DNA of 64,000 nt from Aquitalea aquatica (GTDB taxonomy: Bacteria; Pseudomonadota; Gammaproteobacteria; Burkholderiales; Chromobacteriaceae). Below are positions 7,990-40,277 of this stretch, one piece after another. The notes below the pieces were generated by a model that was not told where the DNA came from, did no database searches, and saw only the letters and a list, made by a program, of their open reading frames with translations. The DNA lies in contig NZ_JACERN010000039.1 of the NCBI RefSeq assembly GCF_013911085.1, positions 1 through 64,000 of the forward strand, written 5' to 3'. How positions within the stretch are numbered: the first letter of the stretch is position 1; the number at the start of each line of letters is the position of its first letter. Both the position numbers and the translations under genes were made by a program.

Positions 7990-8907
7990 TTACATGCTGC
8001 GGCTGATTGCTTCGCTGCGTTCCAGCGTGGCAATCAGCCAGTCGCGGAAGGCGCGAATCTTAGGCTGCTGTGCCATTTCGTGCGAATACATCAGGTAGTA
8101 GGCCCACTCGGTTTCCAGCACGGTATCAAACGGAATCACCAGTTTGCCGCGCTGGATATCGTCATTCACCATCGACACCTGCGCCAGCGTCACCCCCATG
8201 CCTGCGGCTGCCGCATGCAGTGCATATTCCAGCGCATCAAAGGTCACACCGCTTTCCGAATTCAGCGAGTTCACCCCCGCCAGCTTCAGCCAGCGATCCC
8301 ATACGTCCTGATCGCGCCAGGGATGCAGCAGGGTGTGGTATTGCAGATCTTCCGGCGTACGCAGCGGATGTGCACCTTGCAGCAGGGCTGGAGAACAGAC
8401 CGGCACCAGTTTTTCGCGGCAGATGCATTCGATGCGCATGTCGGTGGACACTTCCGGCCGTGCCATGCCGATGATGGCCAGATCATACTCAGCCCGGTTG
8501 AAGGGCTTGTCGTGAATCAGCTGGGTAATCAGGTGCAGGGTGTATTCCGGATAACGGGTCTGGAAGTCCGGCAGATTAGGCAGCACCCAGCGCATGGCCG
8601 GAGTAGGGGGGATGCGTACACGCAGGCCACTCTGGCGCAGTCGCAGCATTTCACTGGCTTCATGCAAGAGCTGGAAGGCATCGCGCGCCGGTTTCACCAG
8701 CGCCTCACCCTCGGCGGTCAGCGCCAGCCCACGCGCCTGACGAATGAACAAGCTGGTGCCGTAGAACTCTTCCAGCGTCTGCACATGGCGGCTGACTGCG
8801 CCCTGGGTCAGATGCAGCGAAGTGGCGGCACGGGTAAAGGACAGGTGTTCCGCCGCAGCGACAAAAACACGCAGTGCGTTAAGAGGAGGCAGTTTCATCG
8901 GATTCAT
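7990..8907 (-). CDS. LysR-family transcriptional regulator, GcvA-like
   Basis: This 305-aa protein has an N-terminal winged HTH (KLPPLNALRVFVAAAEHLSFT, then LTQGAVSRHVQTLE) and a LysR substrate-binding domain. The opening LPPLNALR-F-AAA is typical of the GcvA/AmpR/TrpI subgroup. In enterobacteria GcvA controls glycine cleavage genes and the divergent small RNA gcvB. Here too the upstream side holds a likely small RNA gene on the opposite strand. No glycine-cleavage genes are in the window, so the metabolic role stays open. No strong Shine-Dalgarno decides between the ATG at 8907 and the next in-frame ATG at 8898. It ends 9 bases from the end of the convergent hybrid kinase gene. Confidence 0.8.
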   Translation of the reverse strand: MNPMKLPPLNALRVFVAAAEHLSFTRAATSLHLTQGAVSRHVQTLEEFYGTSLFIRQARGLALTAEGEALVKPARDAFQLLHEASEMLRLRQSGLRVRIPPTPAMRWVLPNLPDFQTRYPEYTLHLITQLIHDKPFNRAEYDLAIIGMARPEVSTDMRIECICREKLVPVCSPALLQGAHPLRTPEDLQYHTLLHPWRDQDVWDRWLKLAGVNSLNSESGVTFDALEYALHAAAAGMGVTLAQVSMVNDDIQRGKLVIPFDTVLETEWAYYLMYSHEMAQQPKIRAFRDWLIATLERSEAISRSM

Positions 8908-8982
8908 GTCGTTTAATCATGGCTGGCATGATTATAACTGCTTTGCCAGTTTCGCAGTGGCTGCTTATCCTTGCGGCTAGCT

Positions 8983-8997
8983 CATTGATAATCAATG
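8983..8997. promoter_or_regulatory. 7-1-7 palindrome overlapping a sigma70-like -10 element
   Basis: CATTGATAATCAATG is a perfect 7-1-7 inverted repeat. Its centre contains GATAAT (8987-8992), a good -10 hexamer on the plus strand with a weak CTTATC-like -35 17 bases upstream. It lies 76 bases from the divergent LysR start. It could be an operator for that LysR protein or a Fur-like site; the sequence alone cannot say which. Confidence 0.5.
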
Positions 8998-8998
8998 C

Positions 8999-9227
8999 AA
9001 AGCGTTTGCTCGCTTCAGTTGAAGCATTTTGTTGTGCAAACCTGGCTCCTGTGGGGTTTTTGTACGAGGGATGTCCTCAATGCATGGATAATCTGCTGGC
9101 CGGCAGGCTGCCGCCAGCAAGACGAAATCACTTGGCGGGTGCCGTTGCGGCAGCGCCAGCAGTTTTCCACCCATCTCCACGTTGGGAACGGCCGGGTCTT
9201 ACCTCTGGGACCTGGCCGATTTTTTTT
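8999..9227 (+). ncRNA. Candidate GcvB-like small regulatory RNA
   Basis: The transcript is predicted to run from just after the -10 element to the terminator T-tract, about 230 nt, with no credible reading frame. Visible structure: hairpin 9012-9025 (GCTTC/GAAGC); an unpaired GU-rich stretch 9026-9042 containing TTTTGTTGTGCAAACC; a 10-bp hairpin 9095-9118 with one bulged C; hairpin 9140-9152 (TGCCG/CGGCA); and the terminator hairpin. E. coli GcvB is ~205 nt, transcribed divergently from gcvA, has several hairpins and a GU-rich seed with TTGTTGTGTTTGCAA. Location, orientation, length and seed all agree. The GcvB identity is inferred; existence of some RNA is better supported because the strong terminator serves no plus-strand protein gene. 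Confidence 0.55.
9189..9227 (+). terminator. Intrinsic terminator of the candidate small RNA
   Basis: A 10-bp stem, CGGCCGGGTC against GACCTGGCCG with one G-T pair, is followed by A and a run of T. The nearest upstream plus-strand protein gene is the hybrid kinase, more than 1.2 kb away beyond a minus-strand gene, so this terminator needs its own transcript. Confidence 0.85.
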
Positions 9228-9261
9228 ATCCATTTGCGGTGGCCTGTCTGGCAAACAGGCA

Positions 9262-9286
9262 AGAAAAAAGGCCACTTGCGTGGCCT
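9262..9286 (-). terminator. Intrinsic terminator of hemA-prfA
   Basis: Read on the minus strand, the 7-bp stem AGGCCAC/GTGGCCT with a GCAA loop is followed by a T-run. It lies ~120 bases after the prfA stop and faces the small-RNA terminator, forming a convergent pair. Confidence 0.8.
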
Positions 9287-9405
9287 GAAGATTCGGAGAA
9301 AAAGCCGCAGGACCGGATGAACCGGCCCCCTTGCGGACAAGGGCTGCTTTTTCGGGGTCAGAGTGTACAACGATGTCCGCTGCGGGGCAAACCGCGCAGC
9401 GTCGA

Positions 9406-10482
9406 TCAGTCGCCCAGCGCTGCCAGCAGTTCGGCTTGCTGCTCGGTGATCAGCGCATCGGTCAGCTCGACCAGATCGCCATCCATTACGTAATCCAGCT
9501 TGTACAGCGTCAGATTGATGCGATGGTCGGTAATGCGGCCTTGCGGATAGTTATAGGTGCGGATGCGCTCGGAGCGGTCGCCGGAGCCGATCAGGCTCTT
9601 GCGCTCGGCCGCTTCCTTCTGTTGCTGTTCGCGGCGCTGGATGTCGTTGATGCGCGCCGCCAGTACCTGCATGGCGCTGGCCTTGTTGGCGTGCTGGGAA
9701 CGGCCATCCTGACATTCCGCCACGATGCCGGTGGGCAGGTGGGTAATGCGCACGGCGGAGTCGGTCTTGTTGATGTGCTGGCCGCCCGCGCCACTGGCAC
9801 GATAGGTATCGATACGCAGGTCCGCCGGGTTCAGCACCACATCCACCAGTTCGTCGGCTTCGGCCATCACCGCCACGGTGCAGGCCGAGGTGTGGATGCG
9901 GCCCTGGGTTTCGGTGGCGGGCACGCGCTGTACGCGGTGCCCGCCGGATTCGAACTTGAGCTTGGAGTAGGCACCGAAACCGATGATGCGGACGATGGCT
10001 TCCTTGTAGCCGCCCAGGTCGGATTCGCTGGCGGAGACGATTTCCACCTGCCAGCGGTTGCGTTCGGCAAAGCGGGTGTACATGCGCAGCAGGTCGGCTG
10101 CGAACAGTGCTGCCTCGTCACCGCCGGTGCCGGCGCGGATTTCCAGAAAGATGTTCTTTTCGTCGTTGGGGTCCTTGGGCAGCAGCAGTTTCTGCAGCTC
10201 CAGCTCCAGCGCGGCCATTTTTTCCCGGCCTTCATCGATTTCCAGCTGGGCGAATTCCTTCATGTCCGGGTCGGACAGCATCTCGCCAGCGGTGGCGATA
10301 TCAGTTTCGCATTGCTGGTATTGCTGGAAGGTTTCCACTACCGGGGTGAGTTCGGCGTGTTCACGGGTCAGCTTGCGGAACTGATCCATATCGGCAGTCG
10401 CCGATTCGCTGGCCAGAAGGTGGGTCACCTCTTCCAGACGATCGGCCAACTGCGACAGTTTTGTCGCAATCGACGGTTTCAT
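9406..10482 (-). CDS. prfA: Peptide chain release factor 1
   Basis: RF1 recognises UAA and UAG in the ribosomal A site and triggers peptidyl-tRNA hydrolysis. The 358-aa length is normal. The catalytic GGQ is at residues 233-235 within [16 protein letters not shown], and the RF1 discriminator PxT appears in [13 protein letters not shown], which separates it from RF2. The ATG overlaps the hemA stop by one base (TAATG), so the two genes are translationally coupled, the classic hemA-prfA order. An intrinsic terminator follows. Confidence 0.97.
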
Positions 10483-11735
10483 TACGACTCCGGGTGTAAG
10501 TGGTACAGGCGGGCGATGGTTTCCACCATGGCCGCATGCTCCGCGCCGCTACCGGAGGACAGGGCCTGGGTAGGGGGATGCATCAGTTTGTTGGTGAGTT
10601 GCTGCGACAGGCTTTCCAGCACTTTTTCCGGCGGCGTGCCCTTGGCCAGCTGCTTGAGCGCGGCCTCCAGCGCATGGCGGCGGGTACGGTCGGCTTCGTC
10701 GCGCAGGGCGCGGATCAGCGGTACGGTTTCGCGCTTTTTCAGCCAGTCGTTGAATTCGGCCACGCGGGCCTGAATGATAGACTCGGCCTCTTCCGCCGCG
10801 CTCTGGCGGGCTTCCTTGCCCACCTCCACGATGCTGGCGATATCGTCCACCGTGTACAGGTAGACATCATCCAGCTTGCCGACTTCGATTTCGATATCGC
10901 GCGGCACGGCCAGGTCCAGCATGAAGATGGGGCGATGGCGACGGGCCTTGATGGCACGCTCGACCAAGCCCTTGCCAACAATGGGCAGCTGGCTGGCAGT
11001 GGATGTGACCACCACATCGTAGCGATGCAGTACATCGGGCAGCTCGGACAGGGTGATGGCATTGCCGCCAAACTGCTCGGCCAGTTTCTGCCCCCGCTCC
11101 AGCGTGCGGTTGGCAATGGTGATACAGGAAGGCTCACGCGCGGCAAAGTGAGTGGCCACCAGTTCGATCATCTCGCCAGCACCGATGAACAGGATATTCA
11201 GTTCACCGATAGTGGGGAAAATCTGTTCGGCCAGCTTTACTGCCGCTGCGGACATGGATACCGAGCTGGATCCCACGGCGGTGCTGCTGCGTACTTCCTT
11301 GGCCACGGCAAAGGTGCGCTGGAACAGGCCGTTGAGCAAGGAGCCCAGCGTGCCGACGTTTTCTGCCGCGCGCACCGCGTCCTTCAGCTGGCCGAGGATC
11401 TGCGTTTCCCCCAGCACCATGGAATCCAGGCCGGAGGCCACGCGGAAGGCATGGCGGGCGGCGCTGCTGGCATCCAGCTGGTACAGATAGGGGCGTAGCT
11501 CTTCCACCGGCAGGCCATGGTATTGCGACAGCCACTGCAGTGCCTGCTCGGGATTGTTGCTGTTGCAGTAGATTTCCGTGCGGTTGCAGGTGGAAACGAT
11601 GGCCGCCTCGCGCGCCGCGTGCGAACCCACCAGGCTTTCCAGCGCATTGGGCAATACCTCGGCCGGGAAGGCTAGCTTCTCGCGTACCGACAGCGGGGCG
11701 GTGTGATGATTGAGGCCAAAGGCAACCAGATGCAT
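10482..11735 (-). CDS. hemA: Glutamyl-tRNA reductase
   Basis: This enzyme catalyses the first committed step of C5-pathway tetrapyrrole synthesis, NADPH reduction of glutamyl-tRNA(Glu) to glutamate-1-semialdehyde. The 417-aa protein begins [20 protein letters not shown], the family N-terminus. The catalytic cysteine is in [11 protein letters not shown], the substrate loop has [12 protein letters not shown], and the NADPH-binding domain has [13 protein letters not shown]. The C-terminal dimerisation helices are complete. It is first in the operon with prfA, and hemY/hemX of the same pathway occur at the right end of the window. Confidence 0.97.
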
Positions 11736-16041: not shown

Positions 16042-16072
16042 CCGATTCATAGCCGATTGCTGGCAGCAAGCG

Positions 16073-16099
16073 AAACAGCCGGGTTTCCCGGCTGTTTTT
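16073..16099 (+). terminator. Intrinsic terminator after gbuA-symporter
   Basis: The 11-bp stem AAACAGCCGGG/CCCGGCTGTTT with a TTT loop runs into more T residues. It separates this unit from the convergent S-formylglutathione hydrolase gene and may work weakly in the other direction too. Confidence 0.85.
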
Positions 16100-16114
16100 G
16101 CATCTGCCGCTGGT

Positions 16115-40102: not shown

Positions 40103-40277
40103 GACGCCAATCGGGGGTGGCAGGCACATGGCAGGATTGGCGTTACCGGTCACCTTGAACCCGGCGCTCCCGGAGGAGCTCCCACCAAGGCCCGCCATGG
40201 AAAAAGGCAAAGCAATGGTGCGAGGACTGGTACGTGTGCACGTAGCAGTCCGCCAAAGTGGGGTCGGGACGCCAATC
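40103..40277. repeat. Repeated GACGCCAATC motifs in a structured leader
   Basis: GACGCCAATC occurs at 40103-40112 and 40268-40277. The inverted copy GATTGGCG at 40135-40142 can pair with 40105-40112 (8 bp, 22-base loop). The second copy lies in a GGGA...TCCC hairpin (40266-40279), and CGCCAATC occurs again at 40521-40528. The whole 40063-40528 gap holds no credible gene; it also contains a DnaA-box-like TTATCCACA at 40381-40389. Confidence 0.5.

Follow-up and report, generated by a model that had tools for sequence, protein, structure and literature searches.

What is encoded in the roughly 500 bases that separate a GcvA-like LysR regulator gene from prfA in Aquitalea aquatica, and does the evident resemblance of this locus to the GcvA/GcvB pair of gammaproteobacteria extend beyond its layout? 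We have compared the locus, which lies in a 64,000-nt stretch of DNA analyzed as a whole (the window), with its counterparts among 61 genomes of the family Chromobacteriaceae. A preliminary description had placed a GcvB-like small RNA here. The gene it pointed to (8978-9226) was correctly spotted but wrongly filed as GcvB: the interval very likely holds a real non-coding RNA gene. In the explanation that we consider best, with a probability of about two in three, a non-coding RNA of about 249 nt in Aquitalea, with a homologue in Chromobacterium, is controlled by the LysR protein, has replaced a MATE exporter and probably acts by base pairing.

Layout and conservation of the predicted RNA gene

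The boundaries of the interval were borne out. It spans 8908-9405, contains no conserved gene and is flanked by two genes on the minus strand. The LysR proteins of several relatives start with MKLPPLN, and the translation start may accordingly be the internal methionine at about 8898, matching these relatives. The following elements are recognized at the locus:

7990..8907, minus strand: gene of the GcvA-family LysR regulator, the divergent partner (compared with the proteins of relatives)
8905..8930, no strand assigned: candidate LysR operator CATG-N9-CATG-N5-CATG, found exactly once per genome in 44 of the 61 family genomes
8914-8934: 8-5-8 palindrome TAATCATG-GCTGG-CATGATTA, overlapping the CATG triplet
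8943..8971, plus strand: sigma-70-type promoter TTGCCA-N17-TATCCT, with the -35 box at 8943-8948 and the -10 box at 8966-8971
8978..9226, plus strand: predicted non-coding RNA of about 249 nt, its putative start about 7 nt after the -10 hexamer
8983..8997, plus strand: 7-1-7 palindrome CATTGAT-A-ATCAATG of the preliminary description, at the 5' end of the predicted RNA (about +6 to +20)
9025..9034, plus strand: conserved element GCATTTTNTT, mean pairwise identity 0.88 versus 0.51 for the preceding 27 nt
9071..9097, plus strand: conserved element ATGTC...TGCATGGATAATCTGC, mean pairwise identity 0.78
9170..9186, plus strand: 3' hairpin CCCA-UCUCCACGU-UGGG, a candidate seed loop
9189..9227, plus strand: intrinsic terminator, a 10-pair stem (9189-9218) followed by a U run
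9264..9289, minus strand: independent terminator-like hairpin where prfA ends, outside the RNA, identity 0.91
9406-10482, minus strand: prfA (release factor 1), the convergent neighbour

Judged from its sequence, the candidate has its own promoter and an intrinsic terminator with a U run, is conserved and lacks a conserved open reading frame, which supports an sRNA-like gene divergent from the GcvA-family LysR gene and present in relatives too. The search of the 61 family genomes returned one long match to the interval in each of the 10 Aquitalea genomes, with a further short match in G000, G002 and G005. Across these 10 genomes, mean pairwise identity reaches 0.94 in the operator palindrome, 0.80 from the -35 to the -10 box and 0.93 at 9170-9189, and falls to 0.39 in the middle of the RNA (9098-9160) and 0.41 behind the terminator. 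Operator, promoter and the 3' hairpin with the terminator (9170-9227) are thus kept in all 10 genomes while the neighbouring sequence drifts, and because identity peaks there, the promoter region and the 3' end of the RNA seem to be under selection. The elements at 9025-9034 and 9071-9097 form two smaller conserved islands.

A consensus scan of 8000-10500 found one promoter-like site where 0.8 are expected by chance, so that the promoter rests on its conservation and not on its consensus score: the spacing is identical at all 10 Aquitalea loci, which share the form TTGYCA-N17-TATCCT. The preliminary description had seen a -10 element under the 7-1-7 palindrome. The palindrome exists, but the conserved promoter sits upstream of it. 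Its full length is present in five of the 10 Aquitalea genomes only, the other five having arms of 3-5, and we rejected it as an operator; the conserved CATG triplet at 8905-8930 appears, from this comparison, to be the better candidate.

The strong plus-strand terminator that serves no protein gene was confirmed. It starts 218 bases after the promoter, in a region (8000-10500) with eight terminator-like sites against 2.4 expected. The sequence 8998-9226 folds at -94.8 kcal/mol against a shuffle mean of -80.8 (z -2.9, 1 of 200 shuffles as good). Across the 10 genomes the terminator stem is paired in 99% of the cells and the CCCA/UGGG hairpin in all cells that bear a letter, whereas a stem within 9071-9097 (alignment columns 88-111) was not supported, with 70% of the cells paired. 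Covariation within the genus is weak, with two pairs changed on both sides, a number reached by 52 of 500 shuffles, because the columns of terminator and hairpin hardly vary. The conservation expected among relatives holds for operator, promoter, hairpin and terminator, but not for the GU-rich stretch that had been taken as the seed.

Elsewhere in the window, positions 40113-40202 (minus strand) match the C4 antisense RNA family (RF01695) with 64.4 bits against a cut-off of 45. C4 antisense RNAs are known from phages, so that the window may hold a prophage.

One operator-promoter module and its outputs

The motif common to the different classes of loci reads CATG-N9-CATG-N5-CATG-N11-TTTGY and ends in the -35 box. 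The strict operator-promoter pattern occurs at 34 of 38 loci, namely all 10 of Aquitalea, 13 of 15 of Chromobacterium, six of eight with a MATE gene and all five of genus g10. By eye, the misses L053 and L060 are off by one letter and L055 has a shifted spacing, while L043 has none. At this last locus, in the Chromobacterium-group genome G020, the LysR gene is kept beside prfA and operator, promoter and RNA are all missing.

For the genome-wide search, a 42-nt operator pattern was run over the 61 family genomes with one mismatch allowed. Its exact matches, one site in each of 44 genomes, always lie at the LysR locus, and in G021 and G036 the operator at that locus carries one mismatch. An operator match at the locus is found in all 48 genomes with a LysR orthologue except G020 and G040. 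Exact matches are absent from the 13 genomes without an orthologue, four of which have a match with one mismatch; stray matches of this kind also occur in several other genomes. The reversed control gave one match in the 61 genomes. The simplest reading of these sequence data is that LysR acts locally, through a single binding region of the CATG-triplet form; a site of a different or looser form may exist elsewhere in the genome. In genus g9, two genomes that lack a close LysR orthologue have a one-mismatch operator (G045:C12:52845-52886 and G047:C38:88404-88445), which may indicate that a diverged relative of the system is present.

In Chromobacterium (g2) the sequence upstream of LysR was inspected in 15 of the 18 genomes with an orthologue. 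Fourteen of these 15 loci contain an RNA-like interval with the same operator and promoter, a different terminator stem and a U run. The hairpin here has the form GCCA-GUCCACGU-UGGC, with the variants GCCC-GUCCACAU-UGGC at one locus and GCCA-AUCCACGU-UGGG at three. Its loop UCCACGU is found at 13 of the 14 Chromobacterium and eight of the 10 Aquitalea loci (it differs in L009, L010 and L047), and the outermost pair, C-G at most Aquitalea loci, is G-C at 11 of the 14 Chromobacterium loci. For the core of the loop (UCCA plus 2), the mean predicted probability of being unpaired is 0.54-0.89 across the 10 Aquitalea models and 0.65-0.96 in 11 of the 14 Chromobacterium models; in L040, L048 and L062 the value is only about 0.2, i.e., the core is mostly paired. 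The three loci L040-L042 of the C. aquaticum/haemolyticum group have an RNA interval that is about 150-180 nt longer than at the other Chromobacterium loci and share an AT-rich stretch, GTAACGGATTATAAATATTACAG, before the RNA 3' end, possibly a second promoter or a processing site.

A model of seven Aquitalea 3' ends detects 13 of the 14 Chromobacterium RNA loci (E<=0.013); L047 follows at E 0.33, and none of 14 loci without the RNA gives a match. Its scores on the Chromobacterium RNA loci (12.6-21.7 bits) are at genome-wide background, and an unrelated site of the window (16046-16101; 13.9 bits, E 0.13) outscored L047. The reverse model, from Chromobacterium to Aquitalea, misses L009 but recovers the other nine Aquitalea loci (E 0.011-0.095). 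Two models were also run, each over 200 sampled genomes of the order and with stricter filters. R1 gave 23 matches: three in Aquitalea score 80-91 bits, and none of the others exceeds 29.1 bits. The 114 matches of R2, all at 30.5 bits or less, are taken as background; the one Chromobacterium-group genome among the matches listed is G023, which has no LysR orthologue. The RNA body is hardly alignable between the two genera. Because the model scores sit at background, the argument for homology combines position, operator and loop, and on these grounds the Chromobacterium interval is a probable homologue of the Aquitalea RNA.

The same module has another partner in four sister genera. Opposite the operator, g3, g5, g6 and g7 have a long open reading frame that encodes a MATE protein at eight of eight LysR loci; the exporter of g5 matches Pfam PF01554, and the other seven proteins are 53-85% identical to this g5 query. 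In three further g7 genomes a MATE protein (56-58%) is encoded and no LysR match reaches E<=1e-60. A close MATE relative (at least 53% identity to the g5 query, E<=1e-20) is present in none of the 10 Aquitalea and none of the 19 Chromobacterium genomes, nine of the latter having matches of 27-29% only at this threshold. The gene order is LysR, MATE, prfA at three g7 loci and LysR, RNA, prfA in the window, at the six Aquitalea loci tested and at the loci of C. aquaticum, C. alkanivorans and C. haemolyticum. In the LysR tree, which leaves out seven rows (four without a found frame and three others), Aquitalea and Chromobacterium are joined (97/100), apart from the MATE genera.

Since the MATE exporter is more widely spread among the genera, we infer that it is ancestral; it may instead have been gained in the other genera. 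Likewise, the RNA may have grown out of the old MATE leader or may have arrived anew. The MATE 3' end was rejected as the source of the RNA hairpin, the loop motif being present in none of eight MATE 3' regions, and a blastn comparison of the RNA with the MATE loci gave nothing better than E 0.066.

An exchange of this kind could have left behind a mere relic: the exporter was lost, the promoter stayed, the terminated transcript has no function and the operator is kept only for autoregulation of LysR. The MATE gene is indeed missing exactly at this locus, the middle of the RNA drifts as much as the sequence behind the terminator, and our target searches (see below) found none. Yet a relic is not expected to keep its hairpin and terminator nearly invariant over a genus with neighbours at about 40% identity, nor to retain the loop in another genus where a pair of the stem is flipped. 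Besides, tblastn with the g5 MATE protein found no remnant better than E 0.55 in the window interval and eight other RNA loci. We consider this explanation unlikely, although it is the strongest of the alternatives.

Genus g10 has kept operator and promoter without a close MATE relative, and its five inspected loci show no evident shared divergent open reading frame. Upstream of the LysR orthologue at these loci (L063-L067), a stretch GCAATGCAATATTCTCATG is identical in three of the five and similar in a fourth; to judge by this similarity it may point to another non-coding RNA. The exchange of the exporter for an RNA may have happened more than once.

Relation to GcvB and other regulatory RNAs

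The GcvB label given to the RNA stands for a homologue or functional equivalent, in which GcvA senses the glycine status and the RNA represses amino-acid and peptide transporters. Part of the comparison holds: like E. coli gcvB, which is divergent from gcvA and 206 nt long, the RNA of about 249 nt is divergent from a GcvA-family LysR gene, so that position, orientation and size agree, but the seed does not. GcvB has a long GU-rich seed (R1), and the gcvB run of E. coli measures 19 nt. The GU-rich stretch TTTTGTTGTGCAAACC near 9027 is present, but it is not conserved, with 10 nt here versus 4-8 nt in the other nine Aquitalea genomes; what the Aquitalea alignment conserves at this site is the element GCATTTTNTT. 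GU runs of 11-14 nt at other places in four of the 10 Aquitalea RNAs speak in favour of a GcvB. Against it, the GcvB model RF00022 does not match in 8500-9700 even at E 10, and its best score in the genome (12.7 bits, elsewhere) is at chance level for a gathering cut-off of 42; in the controls it rose above the cut-off in one of 14 control genomes, and E. coli was among the nine that responded. A direct BLAST with GcvB gave at best 8 matching nt (E 0.87), and GcvB was rejected on this count too. Neither form of the GcvA half-site (ATTAG/CTAAT) occurs in 8905-8990, while E. coli has two copies of ATTAG.

The regulator itself is ambiguous. Among nine of the 16 GcvA-family proteins of the window genome, E. 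coli GcvA scores highest with this LysR in BLAST, but only just (202 versus 200 and 198 bits), and in a tree test the grouping of E. coli GcvA with this LysR clade was not rejected (p 0.07). On the GcvA model, however, the protein reaches 286.7 bits against a cut-off of 288 and ranks third of the 16 matches in its own genome, so that two paralogues beat it. The orthologous unit of the sister genera is a MATE exporter, and three glycine riboswitch matches in the window genome would allow glycine to exert control in another way; gonococcal gcvT is under riboswitch control, as stated in an excerpt of PMC13104608. The GcvB-like RNAs listed in an excerpt of PMC1557403 come from ten genera, all gammaproteobacterial. 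The suggestion that a GcvB analogue in Neisseriales widens this range is not upheld, the LysR orthologues of four sister genera facing an exporter. Altogether we regard a GcvB as improbable here, somewhat more so than a relic. The layout resembles GcvA/GcvB and, by analogy, the working principle may do so as well.

Two further readings are weaker. The transcript is most improbably the mRNA of a small protein: short open reading frames exist, and by eye a six-codon frame ATG...CATGG[AC]T[AG]A lies at 9071-9091 in nine of the 10 Aquitalea rows (not in G002), but no Shine-Dalgarno sequence is visible before it in these rows, none of the frames of at least 12 codons is common to all 10 Aquitalea genomes (the widest set covers five), and conservation is strongest in the terminator region. 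Least probable of all is an RNA of the RyhB/NrrF type that Fur would repress at the 8983-8997 palindrome. We take the palindrome core, GATAATC, to resemble a Fur box, but the palindrome is shortened in five of the 10 genomes and, by eye, not seen in the Chromobacterium rows, and neither the locus nor any of the 10 scanned loci of relatives matches an Rfam family at its gathering score.

That same scan leaves no other Rfam family as a candidate; weak matches to SorX, suhB and isrD look like terminator look-alikes, and the RNA would belong to an unlisted family. OxyR has many other targets, unlike the regulator at this locus with its single visible operator. The two systems have in common that a LysR gene is divergent from an sRNA gene, a layout that an excerpt of PMC4423775 names for OxyR/OxyS. 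The GcvA/GcvB operator is an inverted repeat, ATTAG-N5-CTAAT, upstream of the RNA promoter according to part of PMC5002191, and an inverted repeat with a 5-nt spacer is found at the corresponding place here. The two systems further share the GcvA-family LysR gene, the divergent RNA gene with its own terminator and a length of 200-250 nt. They differ in the half-site (CTAAT there, CATGA here), in the missing RF00022 score and conserved GU-rich seed, in the one operator of CATG form visible in the genome and in the exporter partner of the sister genera. In alphaproteobacteria, the LysR regulator VtlR/LsrB, known together with the AbcR RNAs, directly activates an sRNA gene (PMC7486931, in part); by description this system is set apart by its class, its RNA and its reported VtlR box GCAT-N3-TG-N3-T. 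The sibling sRNAs NgncR_162/163 of Neisseria act on amino-acid and glycine metabolism. Compared by description, they are a pair of RNAs whose transcription stimulus is given as unidentified, and the excerpt of PMC13104608 describes no LysR-divergent layout. In the open-access literature we found no paper that combines sRNA with either Aquitalea or Chromobacteriaceae, and this RNA is not described among the matches listed for GcvB/GcvA, C. violaceum small RNA, VtlR and LysR-MATE/NorM.

Possible mode of action and significance

We propose that the GcvA-family LysR protein, bound to the CATG-N9-CATG-N5-CATG operator, would control the divergent promoter TTGYCA-N17-TATNCT. In the sister genera the same regulator, operator and promoter would serve the MATE exporter they face; in Aquitalea and Chromobacterium, where this gene is gone, the promoter would make the RNA instead. 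LysR would switch on the RNA upon sensing some compound, perhaps a former substrate of the MATE pump. The comparison shows the conservation of the locus, the operator-promoter module, the hairpin, the terminator and the synteny; transcription, control by LysR, dependence on Hfq and pairing are proposed here. The RNA probably acts in trans, with Hfq, by pairing to mRNAs; Hfq is encoded in the window genome (profile match, 95.8 bits against a cut-off of 61.7). Pairing would most likely involve the exposed loop UCUCCACGU, which directly precedes the Hfq-type terminator and could mask a Shine-Dalgarno region.

Targets were sought with two patterns. The loop complement AACGTGGAGA has 23 sites in the 10 Aquitalea genomes against 30 for the reversed control; eight of the 23 are the RNA itself, and 13 of the other 15 lie in open frames of at least 159 codons. 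The pattern ACGTGGAG-N3-11-ATG gave 48 sites against 67 in the control in the Aquitalea genomes, and among the 29 loci read, both site strings found in three genomes fall within long open reading frames. A single plausible start-codon site (L179) precedes a 334-codon open reading frame and occurs in the window genome alone. A conserved start-codon target was thus not found by the two loop-complement patterns over the genus.

To our knowledge, how regulators come to control small RNAs is poorly documented. The present locus illustrates that a GcvA label and a divergent sRNA do not make a GcvB. Tentatively, with doubt slightly outweighing confidence, we put forward that a regulatory RNA has taken the place of a MATE exporter, formerly the sole structural output of a LysR protein that has one recognizable operator in each genome, with operator, promoter and partly the gene order kept and the RNA as the only visible output of this protein. 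One operator-promoter module can be traced across a single family in which its output takes two or three forms, and this traceability makes the exchange datable and testable.
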